Shown here: in pieces, positions 2,684-52,811 of the stretch | How the letters are laid out: each line of letters starts with the position of its first letter | How positions within the stretch are numbered: the first letter of the stretch is position 1 | NCBI RefSeq assembly: GCF_025457605.1 | Contig: NZ_JAMZFY010000001.1 | Coordinates: forward strand, 372,001-436,000 | Source of the DNA: Haloarcula laminariae | GTDB taxonomy: Archaea; Halobacteriota; Halobacteria; Halobacteriales; Haloarculaceae | DNA: 64,000 bases | Direction of reading: 5' to 3' | Made by a program: the position numbers and the translations under genes | The notes under the pieces: generated by a model | Told to the model about the DNA's origin: nothing | Database searches by the model: none | What the model saw: only the letters and a program-made list of their open reading frames with translations

Positions 2684-3748
2684 ATGACACGGGACCGGCT
2701 CCGCGAGAACCTGCGGCTGCTCGGCCTCTCGGCCAAGGAGATAGCCGTCTATCTCACCATCCTCGACCACGGGACGGTGACGGTCAGCCGCGTCGTCGAC
2801 GAGTCCGACGTCTCACAGCGGCACGTCTACCAGATGTGCGAACAGCTCGACGAGCGCGGGCTGGTCGTGCTCAACGACCACGTCAGGCCCTCGGTGGTCC
2901 GGGCCCAGCGGGCCGACAGCGCCGTCAGCAGCATCGACGCCCGCCTCGCCGAACTCGAAGCGGACATCGAGAGCGAGCTCGCCGACCAGGACGTCGCTGA
3001 CCTCGAAGTCGAACTGATAAAGTCCGGCCAGACGCTCGCCAAGCGCTGGCGCCGCGATATCGACGCGGCCGAGGCGGAGGTGTTCATCTGTCTGCCCGCC
3101 GCGGTGTTCGACCGGTTCACCGACGCGCTGGCCGACGCTCTCGACCGAGGCGCCGCCGTCTACGTCCTCGTGACCGACCCGGGCCTCGACGCGTTCGACA
3201 CGGCCGCGCTCGAGGAGTGTGCGACGCTCGCGCGCACGTGGGCGTACGAACCGCAACCGCTGCTCACCGTGGACCGCGAACGGATGGCGCTGGACGACCC
3301 GGGCTTTCTCGTCGGCGGCGGCGACGGCAGCGCCATCTCGCTCACCCGGTCGGCCGTCACCGGGAACCTCTTCAGCACGTATCTCGGCAACTTCTGGCGG
3401 CTCGCTACGGAGGTGTACCGCTGTGACCGCGACCCGCTCCCCCAGTCGTATCCGACGCTTCGCAACGCGCTCGTGCAGGCGACCCTGTACGAGCGCGCCG
3501 GCGTCGACCTGACCGCGACTATCACTGCCAGGGACATGACGACCGGCGAAATCGTCGAACTGGCGTCGGTCCCGATTCTCGAGGTCCGACAGGGGCTGAT
3601 GGACCCGTTCAGCAACGAGTTCCCCATCGAGAACAGCGTCCACGTCGGACACGACGGCGAGGTGGTCACCGTCGGCGGCGTCAGCGCCGTTATCGAGGAC
3701 TACGAGGCGATGGATATCCGGCTCGAACGAGCCCCTCAAAGCGAGTAA
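2684..3748 (+). CDS. TrmB family sugar-sensing transcriptional regulator
   Basis: 354 residues. The first 75 or so form a winged helix (LGLSAKEIAVYLTILDHG, then VTVSRVVDESDVSQRHVYQMCEQL). Residues 115-350 match the TrmB sugar-binding half, ending in the beta-rich module seen in this family. The open frame extends upstream to 2126 inside the ATPase gene, but that extension is arginine-rich shadow sequence. The Met at 2684 starts exactly at the winged helix and lies 86 bases after the ATPase stop. By context it probably regulates the sugar importer just upstream. The effector is unknown. Confidence 0.9.
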   Translation: MTRDRLRENLRLLGLSAKEIAVYLTILDHGTVTVSRVVDESDVSQRHVYQMCEQLDERGLVVLNDHVRPSVVRAQRADSAVSSIDARLAELEADIESELADQDVADLEVELIKSGQTLAKRWRRDIDAAEAEVFICLPAAVFDRFTDALADALDRGAAVYVLVTDPGLDAFDTAALEECATLARTWAYEPQPLLTVDRERMALDDPGFLVGGGDGSAISLTRSAVTGNLFSTYLGNFWRLATEVYRCDRDPLPQSYPTLRNALVQATLYERAGVDLTATITARDMTTGEIVELASVPILEVRQGLMDPFSNEFPIENSVHVGHDGEVVTVGGVSAVIEDYEAMDIRLERAPQSE

Positions 3749-39601: not shown

Positions 39602-40672
39602 TCAGTCGTCGGCGAGACTGCCGGGCCGGCGGGGCTCGGTGTTGTGCTCGACCAGGTCCTGGCCGATTCCGAGCGCCTGGTTGGTCCGCTGGACGCTCGT
39701 CTCAGCGCTCGTCGTCCGTCCACAGACCGCCCGAATCGCGTCGACGTTCTCGGGGACGACGTCGGCTTCCTGGTGAATCGCCTGGAAACAGTAGAGGTCC
39801 CCGTCCTCGACCGTGACCGACTCGGCCCAGATGCAGTTCTCCCAGATGTCACCGCGCGCGCGGCCCGTGTCGCGAGTGTACTCCTTGAGCTTCCCCGCCC
39901 CGTCGATATCCAGATGCTCCGGGAGCAAGAACAGCCGCGACTCCCGGGCCAGAACGTCCCGGACTTCGTCGGCGGTGGGGTCGGCGTCGAGCGTGACGTT
40001 GACGCTGTGGGTGTGCATCTGCGTCGTCGGCACTTTCATCCCCATCGTGTCGATATCGATGTCGGGGAACACCGTCTCCACGTCCGGCCCGTGGTGGGAC
40101 GGAATCTCGACCGGGTCGGGCAGCGTGTCGTTTATCGGCCCCCGCCCCGTGTCGCCGGGGTCGCCGCCGCGGCGGACGAGCGTGACGCGGGCCTTCTCGA
40201 TGCCGAACTGCTCGCGAATCGGGGCGAACAGCCGCGAGAGCCCCGTCGTGTTACAGGAGACCACGCGGGCGGAGTCCGCGCCGACCGCCCGCTCGTAGTT
40301 GGCCCGGGCGTTGAAGCTCACCTCGGCCACGTCGGCGTCCTCGCCGCCCTGGAAGAGCGCCGGCGTCTCGTACTCGCTGTAGAGGTCGGCGTACGTCGCG
40401 CCGACGCCGCTGGGCGTCGCATCGACGACGACGTCGCTTTCCTCGACGAGGTCGGCGACCACGCCCTGTGTCGGCACGTCGATGGCCTCGAACTGCGTCC
40501 GACTGTCCTCGTCGGCCGCGTAGAGGTCGTATCCGCGGTCGTCTGCCACGACCGCTTCGAAGTTCGGGGAGCGTTTCGTGACGCCGGCGACCGTCATATC
40601 CGGCTGTAGTCGAACCGCATCGGCGACCCGCTTGCCGATGGTTCCGAAGCCGTTGATGCCCACGTGGAGCAT
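39602..40672 (-). CDS. gapII: Type II glyceraldehyde-3-phosphate dehydrogenase
   Basis: 356 residues from [18 protein letters not shown](P)-binding [11 protein letters not shown] is at 5-15 and the catalytic Cys is C140 in [10 protein letters not shown], the archaeal (class II) signature. The 16-codon upstream extension is rejected since it starts inside the TATA region. Haloarchaea carry a bacterial-type glycolytic enzyme and this archaeal type, which in studied species works in gluconeogenesis. Being next to PEPCK supports that direction. It has its own promoter with a TrmB-like site. Confidence 0.95.
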
Positions 40673-40720
40673 GGACGTGTGTTCTCGGGGATGTGGCATA
40701 TTTGTTTCGTATTTCGACAA

Positions 40721-40744
40721 TATTTTTTAACTCAAACTGTAGTA
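40721..40744 (-). promoter_or_regulatory. gapII promoter: TATA box with TrmB-like TACT-N7-GAGTT element
   Basis: On the minus strand TTAAAAAATA (40730 to 40721) is a strong TATA box 50-58 bases before the ATG, predicting transcription start near 40695. Directly upstream, overlapping the BRE position, is TACT-N7-GAGTT (40744 to 40729). The published Halobacterium TrmB consensus is TACT-N7/8-GAGTA; this site deviates at the last base only. In that system a site upstream of the TATA box accompanies activation of gluconeogenic genes. Confidence 0.55.
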
Positions 40745-40775: not shown

Positions 40776-42281
40776 TCAGTACCGGGCGTCCCTGATAGCC
40801 GGGTCGAGGTCGTCGAACCGGGCGAGATAGCTATCGCGCTCGTCCCGCAGCGCGTCCAGCGTCGACTGTGGATCGGAGAGCGCGGTGGCGACGTCGAACT
40901 CGTCGATGTCCATTCCGGGGACGTCGCTCGGGACGGTGAGCCCCGTCGTCCCGTCGCGCTCCCAGTCGAGTGACTCCCGTGCGACGGTGCGCAACAGCGT
41001 CACCGTCTCTTCGACCCCGACGTCGAGGGGGCCGACGCTGCCGGTGTTCAACACGAAACAGTCGACGTCGAGGTCGGTTATCAGCTCGCGGAACCGGTTG
41101 CCCTCCTCGCCTTCCGACCCGATGATGAACGGGTTCGTCCCGACGACACGAATCGACTCCCCGGCAGCGCTCGGGTCGCCGGCGCTCGTCTGGACCGACT
41201 CGCCGAGCATGAACGCCACCGCGGCCTCCTCCGGCGTGAGCTTGGCAATCGGCGGCATCGCCGGGTTGCGCGTGATGAAGAATATCTGGTCGACCTCGGG
41301 CAGGTCGATGTCCGCTCCGGCGGAGGAGAGCCGCTCGCGCTGGATGATGGCCCGCCCGTTCGTCGTGTACCGGTCGCTGTCGAAATCGACCGCTCCGTCC
41401 CCGTCGACGTCGACGTTTTCCAGCACCGCCGACTCGTCGGTCACCGCGTCGTACATCGCGGGTTCGGTCTCGCTGTCGAGGCCGTGGGTCTTGACGAACA
41501 GCCCCTGCCCTTCGCTGCCGGCCACGGTCCCGTCGGGGCCCAGCGCACAGACGTCATCCTGCAGCATCGTCGCGCCCTCGGGCTCGTCGAGCCACAGCCC
41601 GTGGGCGGTCAGCGTGGACTTGCCGGTCCCCGAGAGCCCGAGAAACAGCTGGCCGACGGTTTCGAGCCCGTCGTCGGTCTCCAGCTCGACCCGCTTGCTC
41701 CCCGCGTGGAGGCCGAGCCCGCCCTGTCGCTTCGCGTAGTACATGAACAGCCTGAGAAACGACTTCTTGGCTTCGCCGGTGTAGTCGCTACCGACGACGG
41801 CGGTGAACCCCTCGTCCGGGAAGACGCGGACGCCGACTTCCTCCCGGTCCGGGAGCTGGACGGTGTGGAAGTCCGGCTCGCGCTCGCCCTCGACGGGTTC
41901 GAAGAGCTTCGCCCACCCCAGCGCGATGCGGCTGTGCGCTTTGGGCACGTAGTAGCGGCAGACGTACGTGTGGTCGGGATGGCGACCCATCTGTCGGTCC
42001 AGGCAGACGAGCTCCCTGTCGTCGAGGTCCGAGAGGGCGCCGTCGACGAGCTCGTAGTCCGCCGCGTCGAACTCGTGGTCGACGGTGTTTTTCGTCCGCT
42101 CGGCGTTCCGTGACCGCTCCCGGCTCACGTACGACGGCGAGCCGAATTCGGTCGTCGTCTCGTGATGCCGCGAGAACTCCCGTAGTTGCTCCAACGACGG
42201 ATTGTACGCCACGTTATCGGCCGTCTCCGGGTCTGGCAATGCAGCCACGTAGTCCGAGGCTGGCACCGATGGCTGTTGCAT
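40776..42281 (-). CDS. pckA: Phosphoenolpyruvate carboxykinase (ATP)
   Basis: 501 residues. Kinase-1a loop GLSGTGKST at 215-223, kinase-2 metal site LQDDVCAL at 240-247, and substrate/metal residues in GRAIIQRERL and FFITRNPAMPPIAKLTPEEAAVAFMLG match the ATP-dependent class. Converts oxaloacetate plus ATP to PEP, the entry step of gluconeogenesis from C4 acids. It lies 103 bases upstream of gapII on the same strand, with separate promoters. Many haloarchaea rely on PEP synthase, so the enzyme's presence beside a C4 transporter is informative. Confidence 0.95.
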   Translation of the reverse strand: MQQPSVPASDYVAALPDPETADNVAYNPSLEQLREFSRHHETTTEFGSPSYVSRERSRNAERTKNTVDHEFDAADYELVDGALSDLDDRELVCLDRQMGRHPDHTYVCRYYVPKAHSRIALGWAKLFEPVEGEREPDFHTVQLPDREEVGVRVFPDEGFTAVVGSDYTGEAKKSFLRLFMYYAKRQGGLGLHAGSKRVELETDDGLETVGQLFLGLSGTGKSTLTAHGLWLDEPEGATMLQDDVCALGPDGTVAGSEGQGLFVKTHGLDSETEPAMYDAVTDESAVLENVDVDGDGAVDFDSDRYTTNGRAIIQRERLSSAGADIDLPEVDQIFFITRNPAMPPIAKLTPEEAAVAFMLGESVQTSAGDPSAAGESIRVVGTNPFIIGSEGEEGNRFRELITDLDVDCFVLNTGSVGPLDVGVEETVTLLRTVARESLDWERDGTTGLTVPSDVPGMDIDEFDVATALSDPQSTLDALRDERDSYLARFDDLDPAIRDARY

Positions 42282-42565
42282 CCGTACGAGAGGGGCCGCT
42301 CCCTATACTAATAAGATTGATAGGACTGTGATAGTAGTAAACATCTACAGCGACTCGGAATATAACGAAAGAAAATTCAATATGCGGCCGGAACGGCCGG
42401 GAAAATTCTACGATTGAACAGGGCGGATACGGACGACAGCGGCCTTCGCTCCGGTCGCGCCGGTGGCTCAGAGGCGGCTATTCGGGCACAGCACCACTCC
42501 CGGGCGGTACATGCTGTCGGCTGTACCACCGGCGGGCGAGAACATTACCAGTACAGCCGACAGTT
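42282..42565 (-). promoter_or_regulatory. pckA upstream region with hairpins (no gene)
   Basis: No convincing ORF in these 284 bases. The pckA-proximal part (about 42300-42380) is AT-rich with a TATA-like CTTATTAGTATA (minus) some 25-35 bases before the ATG and the repeated hexamer TGATAG (+ strand, about 42318-42336). A 6-bp hairpin CGGCCG-GAA-CGGCCG sits near 42386-42400 flanked on both sides by GAAAATTC. The distal end holds a perfect 13-bp inverted repeat described separately. Confidence 0.4.
42514..42563 (-). terminator. Perfect 13-bp inverted repeat after the tautomerase gene
   Basis: CTGTCGGCTGTAC (42514-42526) and GTACAGCCGACAG (42551-42563) are exact reverse complements with a 24-base loop. 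The structure begins two bases after the tautomerase stop codon on the minus strand, so it would form at the 3' end of that transcript and may terminate or stabilise it. It has no clear T-run, so a binding site is also possible. Confidence 0.45.
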
Positions 42566-42943
42566 TCAGCTATCCGGGGTCCACTCGCCGCCGACCCGGT
42601 CGACGCCCATCATCGCGTCCCCGGGGTGTTCGGTGAACACGACTTTCATGTTCTCGTCCGGGATGTCGAACTCGTCGGCCGCGTACTCCATCGTGGCGAG
42701 CGCGAACGCGCGTTTCCGGTCGACGGACCGGCCCTGCCGGATTTCGGCGTCGAGAAAGAGCAAGGGCCCGTCGACGGCCCGCCCGAGATGCATCTCCGCC
42801 GAGTCACGTTCTCGGATAGTGACCGCGACGTGGCCGCTGGTCGTCCGCATCTCCGTCGTGTAGAGCTCCGTCACCCGTTCGGCGAACGAGGTTTTCTCCG
42901 CCGCCGATAGCGACCGTGCGATGTCGAACTGTAACAACGGCAT
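42566..42943 (-). CDS. Tautomerase superfamily protein
   Basis: 125 residues from MPLLQFDIARSLSAAEK; after Met removal Pro2 becomes the catalytic N-terminal proline of 4-oxalocrotonate tautomerase/MIF-like enzymes. The 17-codon extension upstream would bury this proline and is rejected. It has the two beta-alpha-beta units of a full-length (two-repeat) monomer: AERVTELYTTEMRTTSGHVAVTIRERD and KRAFALATMEYAADEFDIPDENMKVVFTEHPG. Keto-enol tautomerisation of an oxo-acid is likely, fitting the organic-acid locus; exact substrate unknown. Confidence 0.8.
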   Translation of the reverse strand: MPLLQFDIARSLSAAEKTSFAERVTELYTTEMRTTSGHVAVTIRERDSAEMHLGRAVDGPLLFLDAEIRQGRSVDRKRAFALATMEYAADEFDIPDENMKVVFTEHPGDAMMGVDRVGGEWTPDS

Positions 42944-43181
42944 ACCCACAGTCGCGTCGAGAGCGGCTTTTACCTTCCCTCTCTGTCTGCCCATGCCGTG
43001 GTCGATACCCGCGAGACTGCACGACCGACGCCGCCAAGGGGGCCCTCGCCGCCCGCCACTCCAAGCAACACCATTTAAATCGTGGCTTCACTTACTGCAG
43101 GTTGATTGGGTATCTCGCACATGCGTCTGGATCCCTGGCTGACAGGCGGTTTGTGGCCTGTAACACCTCGGTGGTGGTACT

Positions 43182-43442
43182 GTGGCGACAGATGACTCCA
43201 ACCCCGTCGACTACGCGGACATAGATGACATCTCGCCGGCGGCGTGGCGACTGCTCCGGGTCGCTGCCGGCTACGAGCAGCGGGGCGTCGAACGGGAGGT
43301 CGACGACCTCATGCAGGCGCACCTCTCGATGCTCGAAAACGGAACGCGCGGCCTGTCACAGTCCCGCCGCCAGGTCCTGTTCGAGCTGTACACCGCTGAC
43401 CTCAGCAGGGCCCAGGTCGAGGCGTTAGTTACCAACTTCTAG
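43182..43442 (+). CDS. Small HTH (XRE-like) DNA-binding protein
   Basis: 86 residues, starting at GTG (an in-frame TAA lies eight codons upstream and no ATG intervenes). The helical chain SPAAWRLLRVAAGYEQRGVEREVDDLMQAHLSMLENGTRGLSQSRRQVLFELY resembles the five-helix XRE fold: helix 2-turn-helix 3 around RGVEREVDDLMQAHLSMLENG. It is the first gene before the carboxylate transporter with 72 bases between. Its role as local regulator is inference from position. GTG and a long leader (TATA-like ATTTAAAT at 43074-43081) hint at translational control. Confidence 0.65.
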   Translation: MATDDSNPVDYADIDDISPAAWRLLRVAAGYEQRGVEREVDDLMQAHLSMLENGTRGLSQSRRQVLFELYTADLSRAQVEALVTNF

Positions 43443-43507
43443 TAACATAACCATTCATAATTCATGTTCCTCCACAAAGCTTAATAGCCGCGACTGGAGA
43501 TTACGGC

Positions 43508-43522
43508 TGTATCAATGATACA
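43508..43522. promoter_or_regulatory. 15-bp palindrome across the DASS transporter start codon
   Basis: TGTATCAATGATACA, a 7-1-7 perfect palindrome whose centre contains the ATG (43515) of the transporter. A bound repressor would block the start of the mRNA, as the TATA-like CTTAATAG lies near 43480-43488 and transcription should begin close by. The same 15 bases recur at 48866. Confidence 0.6.
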
Positions 43523-45146
43523 CCGCAATCTGAGCGAGGCACAGCAACGATTAGTGAAATTCGCCATCGCTTCTCTCGGGGCGATACTCATCGCGGCCGC
43601 CCCGTCTCCGTCCGGGCTCTCGCTGGCCGGACAGTACACGCTGTCGACGATGTTCTTCGCCGGGTTCCTGTGGGTGACGGGGGCGCTGCCGCTGGCCGTG
43701 ACGGCGCTGTCTATCCCGGTGTTGCTCACCGCCACCGGCGTCTACGACGACATGGACGCGGCCCTTACGGGGTTTGCCGACCATCTCATCTTCCTGTTCA
43801 TGGCCGGCTTTATGCTGGCAAACGCCCTCCAGAAGTACGACATCGACCGCCGGATTGCGCTGTACACCATGGCGAAGATGGGGAGTTCACCGCGTCGCCT
43901 GATCGGTGCCGTCATGATCTCCACTGCGGGGCTGTCGATGTGGGTCTCGAACACGGCGACCACCGCCATGATGACGCCCATCGCCGTCGGCGTCCTCACA
44001 CAGGTGCTCGGCAGTGAGAGTGTCGCAGCCGTCGGGGACGAGTCCCCGGACGACGCCGCCTCGGGGGCGATGACGGACGGCGGGTTCGGAACCGCCGGCA
44101 TCGAAACCGCGGACGACTTCACCAACATGCAGATCGGGATGTTGCTCGGGACGGCCTACGCCGCCAGTATCGGCGGCGTCGGGACGATAATCGGCACCCC
44201 GCCCAACGCCGTGCTCGTCGGGCAACTCAATGCGATCCTGAACTACGAGATCGGCTTTGCCGACTGGCTGCTCATCGGGCTGCCAGTGGTCTTCGTCACC
44301 TTGCCCATCGTCTGGTATCTCCTCACCTTCGTCCTGTACCCGCCACAGATCGACAACGTCGACGAGGCACAGGCACAGGCCCAGGCGTACCTCGACGAGG
44401 AGGACGATCTCGACCCGCGAGGTCGCCGCGTCGCGGTCATCTTCGGCGTCACGGCCGGTCTCTGGGTGCTGGGCGGTCTCGGGACGTTCCTGGAGCCGTA
44501 TCTGCCGAGTGCGTGGATGACCACGCTCTTCGGCGGTAGCGGGATGACGGTGTTCGGACTCGAAGGCCATCAGGGCATCCTCTACTACGTGATGGTCGGT
44601 GTGATGGCCATCCCCGCGCTCGTGCTGGCCGACACCATGGAGTGGGACGAACTCGTCGACATCGACTGGGGGACGCTCCTGCTGTTCGGCGGTGGTATCG
44701 CGCTGGCCGATGCGCTGGCGAACACCGGCACGACGGAGTGGATCGCCAACACGGTGTTCAGCGGGCTCACCGGGATGCCGATCGTGCTCATCATCGCCGC
44801 CGTCGTGCTCCTGGTCGTGTTCCTGACCGAGATGACCTCGAACACCGCGACGGCGACCATCCTCGCGCCGATACTCATCGGCCTCGGAAGCGTCTTCGCG
44901 GCCACCGTCGGCCTGACGGAGTTCAAGACGGCCATCTTCCTCTCGGTCGCCGGCACGATTGCGGCCAGCTTCGCGTTCGCGCTCCCCGTGGCGACCCCGC
45001 CGAACGCTATCGTCTTCGGGAGCGGGTACATCAAGCAAAGCCACATGTTGCGAACCGGCATCATCCTCAACATCCTCATGACGGCGGTGCTGACGGGGCT
45101 TATCTGGCTCCTGTTTACCTTCGTCTGGCCGATGTTCCTCTGGTGA
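43515..45146 (+). CDS. DASS/SLC13 family carboxylate transporter
   Basis: 543 residues, about 11-12 membrane helices. Both substrate/sodium clamshell motifs are present: SMWVSNTATTAMM and LTEMTSNTATATI (SNT motifs), each followed by Pro-rich hairpins GTIIGTPPNAV and ALPVATPPNAIVFGSG, exactly as in the VcINDY/NaDC type. It should import di- or tricarboxylates such as succinate, malate, fumarate or citrate with sodium. An extra acidic loop (residues 168-200, DESPDDAASGAMTDGG) is a haloarchaeal-looking insertion. Downstream malic enzyme fits malate or succinate as substrate. Confidence 0.93.
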   Translation: MIHRNLSEAQQRLVKFAIASLGAILIAAAPSPSGLSLAGQYTLSTMFFAGFLWVTGALPLAVTALSIPVLLTATGVYDDMDAALTGFADHLIFLFMAGFMLANALQKYDIDRRIALYTMAKMGSSPRRLIGAVMISTAGLSMWVSNTATTAMMTPIAVGVLTQVLGSESVAAVGDESPDDAASGAMTDGGFGTAGIETADDFTNMQIGMLLGTAYAASIGGVGTIIGTPPNAVLVGQLNAILNYEIGFADWLLIGLPVVFVTLPIVWYLLTFVLYPPQIDNVDEAQAQAQAYLDEEDDLDPRGRRVAVIFGVTAGLWVLGGLGTFLEPYLPSAWMTTLFGGSGMTVFGLEGHQGILYYVMVGVMAIPALVLADTMEWDELVDIDWGTLLLFGGGIALADALANTGTTEWIANTVFSGLTGMPIVLIIAAVVLLVVFLTEMTSNTATATILAPILIGLGSVFAATVGLTEFKTAIFLSVAGTIAASFAFALPVATPPNAIVFGSGYIKQSHMLRTGIILNILMTAVLTGLIWLLFTFVWPMFLW

Positions 45147-45166
45147 TACGACGATAGCTATCCGAT

Positions 45167-46384
45167 ATGAACCAGTACCGAACGATTTCGCTCGTCTTCC
45201 TGTGGCAACTCGCCGCGAGTATCTGTTACTACGCTGTCTTCGCCGCCACGCCGTTTCTCCGCGACGAGTTCGGGCTCACCGGGACGACGGTCGGTCTCGT
45301 CGTCACGGTGCTCACGCTCGGGTACGCGGTGTTTCTCCTCCCGCTGGGCGCGGTCACGGACCGCTACGGCGAACACAAGGTCCTCACGGTCGGGCTTCTC
45401 GGCCTCGCTGGGGGCGCGTTGCTCGTCCCGCTCGCGGGTACGTACGCGGTGCTCCTGGGGAGCGTCTTCGTCCTCGGCGCTCTGTACGGGACGGCGATAC
45501 CGGGCACGAACAAGGCGATATTCGGCAACGTCCCCGTCGGTCGGCAGAACCTCGCGACCGGAATCAAGCAGGTCGGCGTCACGGCGGGCAGCGGCGTCAG
45601 CGCGGTGCTGCTGACGAACGTGGCCGCGGTTCTGTCCTGGGAGGCCGGGTTCCACGCCGCCGCGGTGCTCGCCGTCGCGGTCGCGCTGCTCTTTGCGCTC
45701 GTCTACACTCCCGCGACGACGGACCGAGCGACGGAGTTCCCCGACTTCCGCGTCCTGTTTCGAAACCGGGCGTACCGGTCGCTCTGTCTCGCCGGGTGGT
45801 TCCTCGGCGCCGCGCTGTTTACCACCGTGGGCTACACGATAATCTACCTCGAGGAGTCCATCGGCCTGTCGGTCGCACTCAGCGGGCTCGTCCTCGCCGG
45901 GCTACAGGTGTCCGGGAGCGCGGGCCGCATCGTCACCGGCTGGCTGAGCGACGCGCTGCCCGGCGACCCGCGCCGACGTATCGGGGGGATTCTCCTCGCC
46001 CAGGCGCTCGGGAGCGCCGTGCTGTTCGTGACCGTCGCATTCGTCGACCAGCGGCTCGCGGCTATCGTGGCGTTCGTCACCCTGGGATTCTTCATTCTGG
46101 GCTTTACCGGCGTCTACTACTCCTGTATGGCGACGATCGTCCCCAACGAGAAGATGGGCGGTGCGACGGCCGGCGGCCAGTTGGCACTCACGTCCGGGGC
46201 GCTGCTCGCACCGCCGGCCTTTGGCTTTCTCGGGGAGTCTATCGGCTACCGAGCGAGCTGGCTGTTGCTCGCCGGCATGACGGCTCTCTCCTCTGTTTTC
46301 GTCGTCCGAGTCGTTCGCACACCCGAACCGAACGCCGCTGAGTGCGGCGACACGCCCTCCTGCAGCAGTTCGTCCGATGACTGA
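45167..46384 (+). CDS. Major facilitator superfamily transporter
   Basis: 405 residues with 12 predicted helices in two halves. The loop 2-3 signature is GAVTDRYGEHK, the related loop in the second half is TGWLSDALPGDPRRR. A short Cys/Ser-rich acidic tail ends the chain (CGDTPSCSSSSDD). It follows the DASS gene after 20 bases, thus in the same transcript, and precedes malic enzyme. Substrate probably an organic anion by context, not by sequence. Confidence 0.88.
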   Translation: MNQYRTISLVFLWQLAASICYYAVFAATPFLRDEFGLTGTTVGLVVTVLTLGYAVFLLPLGAVTDRYGEHKVLTVGLLGLAGGALLVPLAGTYAVLLGSVFVLGALYGTAIPGTNKAIFGNVPVGRQNLATGIKQVGVTAGSGVSAVLLTNVAAVLSWEAGFHAAAVLAVAVALLFALVYTPATTDRATEFPDFRVLFRNRAYRSLCLAGWFLGAALFTTVGYTIIYLEESIGLSVALSGLVLAGLQVSGSAGRIVTGWLSDALPGDPRRRIGGILLAQALGSAVLFVTVAFVDQRLAAIVAFVTLGFFILGFTGVYYSCMATIVPNEKMGGATAGGQLALTSGALLAPPAFGFLGESIGYRASWLLLAGMTALSSVFVVRVVRTPEPNAAECGDTPSCSSSSDD

Positions 46385-46482
46385 TACGGCTCGGCGTGGT
46401 AACCGCCGGCTGGAAACGACGATAGCGGAACGAAACTACGGCAACCGATTTGTGGACCCGATTCACAACGGAGACAAACACA

Positions 46483-48750
<2,268 letters not shown>

Positions 48751-48865
48751 CTCCGCCCCGGAGACTGTCGCGCCGGTAGTCACGAACGGCGGTCCGGATG
48801 CGCGCGGAATTCCCCGCTCTGCGGGCCAGCGAGCGGAGATACCGGTACGTTTACAATCGGAGGTG

Positions 48866-48880
48866 TGTATCAATGATACA
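48866..48880. promoter_or_regulatory. 15-bp palindrome directly before uspA
   Basis: TGTATCAATGATACA, identical to the one at 43508-43522; its last base is the first base of the uspA ATG (48880). GGAGGTG lies immediately before the palindrome. Occlusion of the leader or the ribosome site is the simplest model. Confidence 0.6.
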
Positions 48881-49323
48881 TGGCGCTCGAAACGGTACTC
48901 CTCGTCGGTCGGCCCGGTGACGAGGGGCACGGCACGAAGCTCGCAGAGGCGGCAACTGACATCGCGAAGCCGGCGAACGCTCGCGTCATCGTCGGCCAGA
49001 TATTCACCGACGACGAGTACGAGAACGCGCTCGCCAGCCTGGGTCTCACGGACGAAGTCGGGGACCTGTCCGCGGAGATAGCGCGCGAACACGGGATATT
49101 CAGCTCGATGACCGCCGAGCTCGACGAGGCGGGCGTCGACTACGAACTGCGAACGGCCGTCGGCCAACACGCAAACAGCATCGTCGACATGGCGGCCGAC
49201 GCGGACCTCGTCATCATCGGCGGCGCGAAGCGGTCGCCGGCGGGGAAAGCCGTCTTCGGGTCGTCGACCCAGGACGTCCTCCTCGAAGCGCCCTGTCCGG
49301 TAGTGTTCGTCCGGCGAGAATGA
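48880..49323 (+). CDS. Universal stress protein (UspA family)
   Basis: 147 residues with the alpha/beta Usp fold. The C-terminal nucleotide motif is VIIGGAKRSPAGKAVFGSSTQDVLL, which fits the ATP-binding G-x2-G-x9-G-(S/T) class. The first strand TVLLVGRPGDEG departs from the usual start by lacking the D after VLVPVD. Adjacent Usp proteins often tune transporters in archaea. It lies 129 bases after malic enzyme, with its own control site, and 30 bases before the TrmB gene. Confidence 0.9.
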   Translation: MALETVLLVGRPGDEGHGTKLAEAATDIAKPANARVIVGQIFTDDEYENALASLGLTDEVGDLSAEIAREHGIFSSMTAELDEAGVDYELRTAVGQHANSIVDMAADADLVIIGGAKRSPAGKAVFGSSTQDVLLEAPCPVVFVRRE

Positions 49324-49353
49324 CCGGCGTCGTGCTCCGACCGCCCGCCCCCC

Positions 49354-50406
49354 ATGGCAGCTGACGACCTGGAGGCGGCGCTGGACGGGGTCATCGCGCG
49401 GTTCGACCTCGGCGAGTACGAGATAACGGCGTATCTGGCGGTCCTCCAGCACGGGGAGCTGACCGCGTCGGAGATAGCCGAGCGGACAGACATTCCCCAG
49501 CCGCGGGTGTACGACACCGTCCGGAGCCTGGGCGATGTCGGCCTGGTCGAACTCAAGGAGGCCCGGCCGATGAAGGTCCTCGCTATCGACCCGCGGGAGG
49601 CGTTTGCCGACTTTCAGGCGTCGCTGGACGAGCTGGTCGAGGGCCTCTCGGCGCGCTACACCGCCCCCGCCAGGGAACCCGAAGCCGTCTCGCTCGTCAA
49701 GTCCCGTCCCACCATCCTCCGCTATCTGGAGGACATCGTCGACGCCGCCGAGTACGAACTCCAGCTGTCGCTGACGCCCGCTCTGCTCGCCCGCTTCGAG
49801 GGCGCGCTACGGCGTCGGGAGGACGACGGCATCGCCACGGAAATCCTGCTGTCGCCGGCCGCCGACGCGCCCGACCCCGACACGTTCGATTACGATGCCG
49901 TGGCGACCACGGTGAAGGGGCGCCGGGGCATCACGACGCCGGTGGTGGCCGTCGCCGACGGGGACTACTCGATGTACGCCACCCGTGAGTCGGTTCGGGG
50001 CGACAACGACCGGTACGGCGTCGTCTTCAACCGGACGGAGCTCGGCTTTCTCGTCTCGGCCTTCCTCAACACCGTCCTCTGGACGACGGCGGAGACCATC
50101 GCAAGCGACGGGTCCGAACTCCCGTTTCCGCGGCGCTACGGCACCATCCGTCGGTGTATCTCCGACCTGGCCGCGCTGGAGGGGGAGTTCCACGCGACCA
50201 TCGAGGGGCGAAACGTCGCGACCGGCGACGACTGGGTCGTCGAAGGGCGGGTCGGAACGGTCTCGTTCGGTCCCAATCGGTCGGTGGCGACGCTGGTCGT
50301 CGAGACCGAGGACGGGCCGGTCGACGTGGGCGGGCAGGTCGCCGCCTACGAGGACATCGAGGCCTACGAGATTCGGGTCGGTCGGGACGCGCCGCCGGGC
50401 GTGTAG
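49354..50406 (+). CDS. TrmB family transcriptional regulator of the C4/gluconeogenesis locus
   Basis: 350 residues. N-terminal winged helix: LGEYEITAYLAVLQHGELTASEIAERTDIPQPRVYDTVRSL. Sugar-binding TrmB domain: SRPTILRYLEDIVDAAEYELQLSLTP and the C-terminal beta module. It sits 30 bases after uspA, in the island with pckA, gapII and maeB, and is a good candidate for the factor that binds the TACT-N7-GAGTT site of gapII. In Halobacterium, TrmB senses glucose and switches glycolysis and gluconeogenesis; orthology is inferred only. Confidence 0.88.
   Translation: MAADDLEAALDGVIARFDLGEYEITAYLAVLQHGELTASEIAERTDIPQPRVYDTVRSLGDVGLVELKEARPMKVLAIDPREAFADFQASLDELVEGLSARYTAPAREPEAVSLVKSRPTILRYLEDIVDAAEYELQLSLTPALLARFEGALRRREDDGIATEILLSPAADAPDPDTFDYDAVATTVKGRRGITTPVVAVADGDYSMYATRESVRGDNDRYGVVFNRTELGFLVSAFLNTVLWTTAETIASDGSELPFPRRYGTIRRCISDLAALEGEFHATIEGRNVATGDDWVVEGRVGTVSFGPNRSVATLVVETEDGPVDVGGQVAAYEDIEAYEIRVGRDAPPGV

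Positions 50407-50621: not shown

Positions 50622-52811
<2,190 letters not shown>

Follow-up and report, generated by a model that had tools for sequence, protein, structure and literature searches.

A short inverted repeat stands upstream of a gapII gene in a 64-kb window of the Haloarcula laminariae genome (the window being the whole stretch of DNA that was analyzed). It raises the question of whether it is an operator for a TrmB regulator and, if so, whether its position relative to the core promoter would serve to activate or to repress the gene. The operator of Halobacterium salinarum TrmB (VNG1451C) reads TACT-N7/8-GAGTA (PMC3794607, PMC4158304), and a site located upstream of the BRE/TATA accompanies activation (PMC4158304, PMC10817205). 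The TrmB targets found by ChIP-seq in Haloarcula hispanica include gapII, fbp and ppsA, which carry a similar motif; gapII expression falls in that species when TrmB is missing, and the motifs of repressed targets overlap the BRE (PMC10817205). We consider it very probable that the element described here serves as a TrmB operator through which this gapII copy is activated in gluconeogenic conditions.

Methods

Promoters of gapII from 80 named haloarchaeal loci were compared with those of 30 other Haloarcula gapII copies, the latter including the canonical copy of the same genome. A profile was trained on 73 other gapII promoter sites, with the window copy left out. Co-occurrence of site and regulator was scored in 50 other haloarchaeal genomes, in which a protein above the NF047392 cut-off defined a TrmB-positive genome (n = 41), and a gapII site was called at a score of at least 7 of 9 and a distance of 40–85 bp from the ATG.

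Results

Sequence and conservation of the probable operator at gapII promoters

The gapII gene of the window (39602..40672, minus strand) encodes a type II phosphorylating glyceraldehyde-3-phosphate dehydrogenase (TIGR01546, 409 bits; NF003251, 500 bits) and is the second copy in the genome. Directly upstream on the same strand is pckA (40776..42281), encoding an ATP-type PEP carboxykinase (PF01293; NF006821, 580 bits). The 103-bp intergenic gap between the two genes holds TACTACAGTTTGAGTT (40729..40744, minus strand), an imperfect inverted repeat of the form TACT...AGTT that was designated a TrmB-type operator by its best profile match and its fixed distance from the start codon: exactly 56 bp separate its 3' end from the ATG of gapII. 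As the sequence-only reading of this DNA had noted, the site reads TACT-N7-GAGTT and is one base away from the haloarchaeal consensus; judged from the promoters compared, GAGTT is what the right half usually reads at gapII. The N8 spacing was discarded, as the best gapII sites found have N7.

Alignment of gapII promoters across haloarchaea, which had been proposed as a check, showed the element to be conserved. Of the 30 other Haloarcula promoters, 28 have a site (mostly TACAACTATCYGAGTT) whose end is exactly 56 bp from the ATG, and one has it at 57 bp; in the last (locus L118), TACAACTATCCGAGTG occupies the same place and was outscored by a neighboring match, and by inspection the operator is found in all 30. 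Most other genera have the gapII site 55–60 bp from the ATG. A site was called in 39 of the 41 TrmB-positive genomes and in none of the nine TrmB-negative ones (Fisher p = 2e-8), and at a threshold of 8 of 9 the figures were 31/41 and 0/9 (p = 4e-5); the negative genomes are mainly Natronomonas and Halovenus/Salinibaculum, the genomes are related and the counts not phylogenetically independent, and both p values overstate independence.

The profile ranks TACTACAGTTTGAGTT first among approximately 128,000 window positions, with 21.15 bits, followed by a site at pckA with 13.54 bits. In related Haloarcula DNA (624,000 positions), nothing reached 15 bits apart from gapII sites. The window site lies below the training median (21 versus 29 bits) because it is missing a conserved 3' extension, AATTTCT (profile positions 17–23), in place of which it reads AAAAAAT. 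This extension was seen in the profile built here and is outside the published short consensus, so it is not strictly defining; by its score, the window operator may be weaker than that of the canonical gapII copy. The third-best match in the window (13.0 bits, 52787-52802) is a near-palindrome, TTATTCAAACGCGAATGATA, that closely precedes katG and is possibly the site of another regulator.

The same element occurs elsewhere in the genome. An extended pattern derived from the gapII sites has three matches in 3.69 Mb, two of which are those of fbp (TACTACAAAGCGAGTAAATTTCT, 34.4 bits) and ppsA (GACTCGTAATCGAGTTAATTTCT, 24.3 bits, at 73 bp from its ATG), each upstream of its gene; the third, at C1:1182041, has no clear target gene. 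At fbp the AATTTCT extension points away from the gene, and it is therefore read as part of the operator and not of the core promoter.

TrmB paralogs and the pckA island

The sequence-only reading had placed a trmB gene 9 kb away in the same island. Such a gene is present (trmB2, 49354..50406, plus strand), with a product above the cut-offs of the haloarchaeal TrmB model (NF047392, 609 bits), PF01978 (72 bits) and PF11495 (207 bits); it is a paralog, however, and one of two trmB genes in the genome above the NF047392 cut-off. The other, trmB1 (C1:1570793), adjoins a glucose dehydrogenase gene and an ABC transporter, the neighborhood reported for HAH_1548, and by this linkage is the gdh-linked ortholog of the characterized TrmB. 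TrmB2 is 88% identical to TrmB1, and the two share the helix-turn-helix stretch PQPRVYDTVRSLGDVGL without a difference. Since the genome also encodes TrmB1, the local trmB2 product need not be the protein that binds the gapII operator; judging from these sequences, either could bind. A single origin of the TrmB2 proteins found no support in a tree with weak inner support. A further TrmB-family gene near the start of the window (2717-3733; G000:C1:374717-375733) scores 112 bits with NF047392, which is below the cut-off.

The island (40776-50406) comprises pckA, two small ORFs, a DASS-family anion symporter, an MFS transporter, a malic enzyme/phosphotransacetylase fusion (maeB), a universal stress protein and trmB2, and is common to Haloarcula rara at 80-91% protein identity. 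The order of the symporter, MFS and maeB genes (43515..48750, plus strand; TIGR00785, PF07690 and NF009501) is kept in H. rara, where the island runs from pckA to trmB2 without gapII (locus L182). In another Haloarcula genome (G021), trmB2 and pckA adjoin divergently and the island gapII is again absent. The window gapII is 77% identical to the other copy (G000:C2:396782-397849) and groups in a tree with gapII of another species (G010; support 97/95), on a long branch. This grouping, the long branch notwithstanding, rules out a recent duplicate of the genome's own canonical copy, and on the tree the window gapII is a second, xenologous copy.

Upstream of pckA, a probable weaker TrmB site, TACTACTATCACAGTC (42324..42339, minus strand), lies 42 bp from the ATG. 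It had been described as only a weak resemblance and is better than that: it is the second-best in the window, and in H. rara and G021 the best site of the locus likewise lies 42 bp from the ATG. The three score 13.5, 10.0 and 12.4 bits, values that are insufficient by themselves. Two further genera of the family (loci L132-L134, L137, L139, L142, L143 and L145-L147) have TrmB-like sites in their pckA promoters, fixed at 80-82 bp from the ATG, with 9.6-17.4 bits. By profile, no TrmB site was found at the promoters of the DASS symporter, maeB, the universal stress protein or trmB2, and there is therefore no sign of trmB2 autoregulation. An inverted repeat, GTTAC-N9-GTAAC, lies upstream of the symporter (43422-43445); it is unmatched by the TrmB profile and is not intact in H. 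rara.

Could TrmB2 alone control a self-contained pckA-gapII island, leaving the rest of the genome to TrmB1? The linkage of trmB2 to pckA in three Haloarcula genomes, in two different gene orders, would fit such a division, as would the presence of sites at both pckA and gapII. We regard it as unlikely, however, given that an identical helix-turn-helix stretch gives no reason to expect the two proteins to differ in their targets and that the islands of the two relatives are without gapII.

Core promoter geometry

The direction of control predicted for TACTACAGTTTGAGTT depends on where the gapII core promoter lies. An AT-rich run, AAAAAATATTG (40718..40728, minus strand), abuts the operator and had been taken for the gapII TATA box. 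That assignment was not supported by alignment: the run takes the place of the AATTTCT extension, and the columns C..AA....TAT, which do not vary among the 11 gapII promoters aligned, correspond to 40698-40709 of the window. They place the probable BRE/TATA, ATACGAAACAAATAT (40698..40712, minus strand), 17-31 bp downstream of the operator and approximately 26-40 bp from the ATG, and on this alignment the AT run is unlikely to be the working TATA box. By the same alignment the operator lies upstream of the probable BRE/TATA, which is the arrangement that goes with activation, and the activation-type position first suggested for gapII is supported, with a different TATA box.

If AAAAAATATTG were the TATA box, the operator would overlap the BRE, an arrangement linked to repression in H. 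hispanica (PMC10817205), and TrmB bound there would repress gapII or barely affect it, with translation beginning at an ATG at 40699. The spacing from approximately 40723 to that ATG fits a leaderless transcript, and the frame is open there. We nevertheless find this reading quite improbable, since the core promoter conserved in other gapII genes aligns with 40698-40712 and not with the AT run, the ATG at 40699 overlaps the TATA in that segment, and the GAPDH proteins of relatives start at an M-L/I that corresponds to the ATG at 40672.

Chance level of the short consensus

The bare string, with one mismatch, was expected 2.5 times in the window and found three times, and the genome (3.69 Mb) holds 68 copies of TACT-N7/8-GAGTW, compared with 54 of a reversed control pattern. 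The short consensus was rejected as stand-alone evidence on account of this chance-level frequency in window and genome. A fortuitous resemblance in an AT-rich intergenic region, devoid of a regulatory role, would accord with these counts and is scarcely credible against the profile rank, the fixed position, the conservation and the dinucleotide shuffles of the 103-bp region, of which 6/20,000 reached 21.15 bits.

Discussion

What the DNA itself shows is a conserved site in a fixed position that goes together with TrmB across genomes and recurs at fbp and ppsA; orthologous promoters, co-occurrence and the fbp and ppsA elements together lend strong support to a TrmB-type site with activator geometry at gapII. 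Binding, sugar response and direction of control are inferred by analogy with work in H. hispanica and Halobacterium. By that analogy, a TrmB protein would, when glucose is lacking, bind the TACT-N7-GAGTT inverted repeat upstream of the BRE/TATA and help to recruit the basal transcription machinery, which would turn on phosphorylating GAPDH for gluconeogenesis; sugar would release TrmB, and gapII expression would go down.

The closest known operators are those of the HAH_1548 regulon of H. hispanica, in the same genus and with gapII as a target, where activation without glucose is associated with a similar motif, partly palindromic, that lies upstream of the promoter (PMC10817205). Unlike in that species, the gapII gene here is an additional, xenologous copy downstream of pckA, its site has no AATTTCT extension and the genome encodes two TrmB proteins of the haloarchaeal type. 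The half sites and N7 spacing resemble the H. salinarum VNG1451C operator, whereas the right half differs in reading GAGTT, and, in the genomes compared here, the pckA/trmB2 island arrangement was limited to Haloarcula relatives. The TrmBL1/Tgr sites of Thermococcales (TGM) likewise activate gluconeogenic genes from upstream of the BRE/TATA; their motif, however, is TATCAC-N5-GTGATA (PMC4158304), and the regulator is distant, the 49354 protein scoring 44 bits with the TrmBL1 model versus 609 with the haloarchaeal one.

The switch predicted at gapII is of a known type, expected and well conserved, and what is mildly notable is an extra gapII in the neighborhood of a spare regulator gene. We offer, as a tentative scenario that we rate as somewhat unlikely, that a mobile gluconeogenic island (pckA, malic enzyme and transporters) carries its own TrmB paralog and has acquired a foreign gapII whose operator is in register, such that two near-identical sugar sensors, possibly with different ligands, would act through a single operator type and divide carbon control between them.

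The site at pckA extends the predicted TrmB regulon to the PEP carboxykinase island. The gapII-promoter profile, with its AATTTCT extension and nearly fixed position of 55-60 bp, is sharper than the short consensus and should help to predict TrmB targets elsewhere among the haloarchaea. The locus itself would offer a clean natural experiment on the division of labor when a sugar sensor and a target gene are both duplicated.
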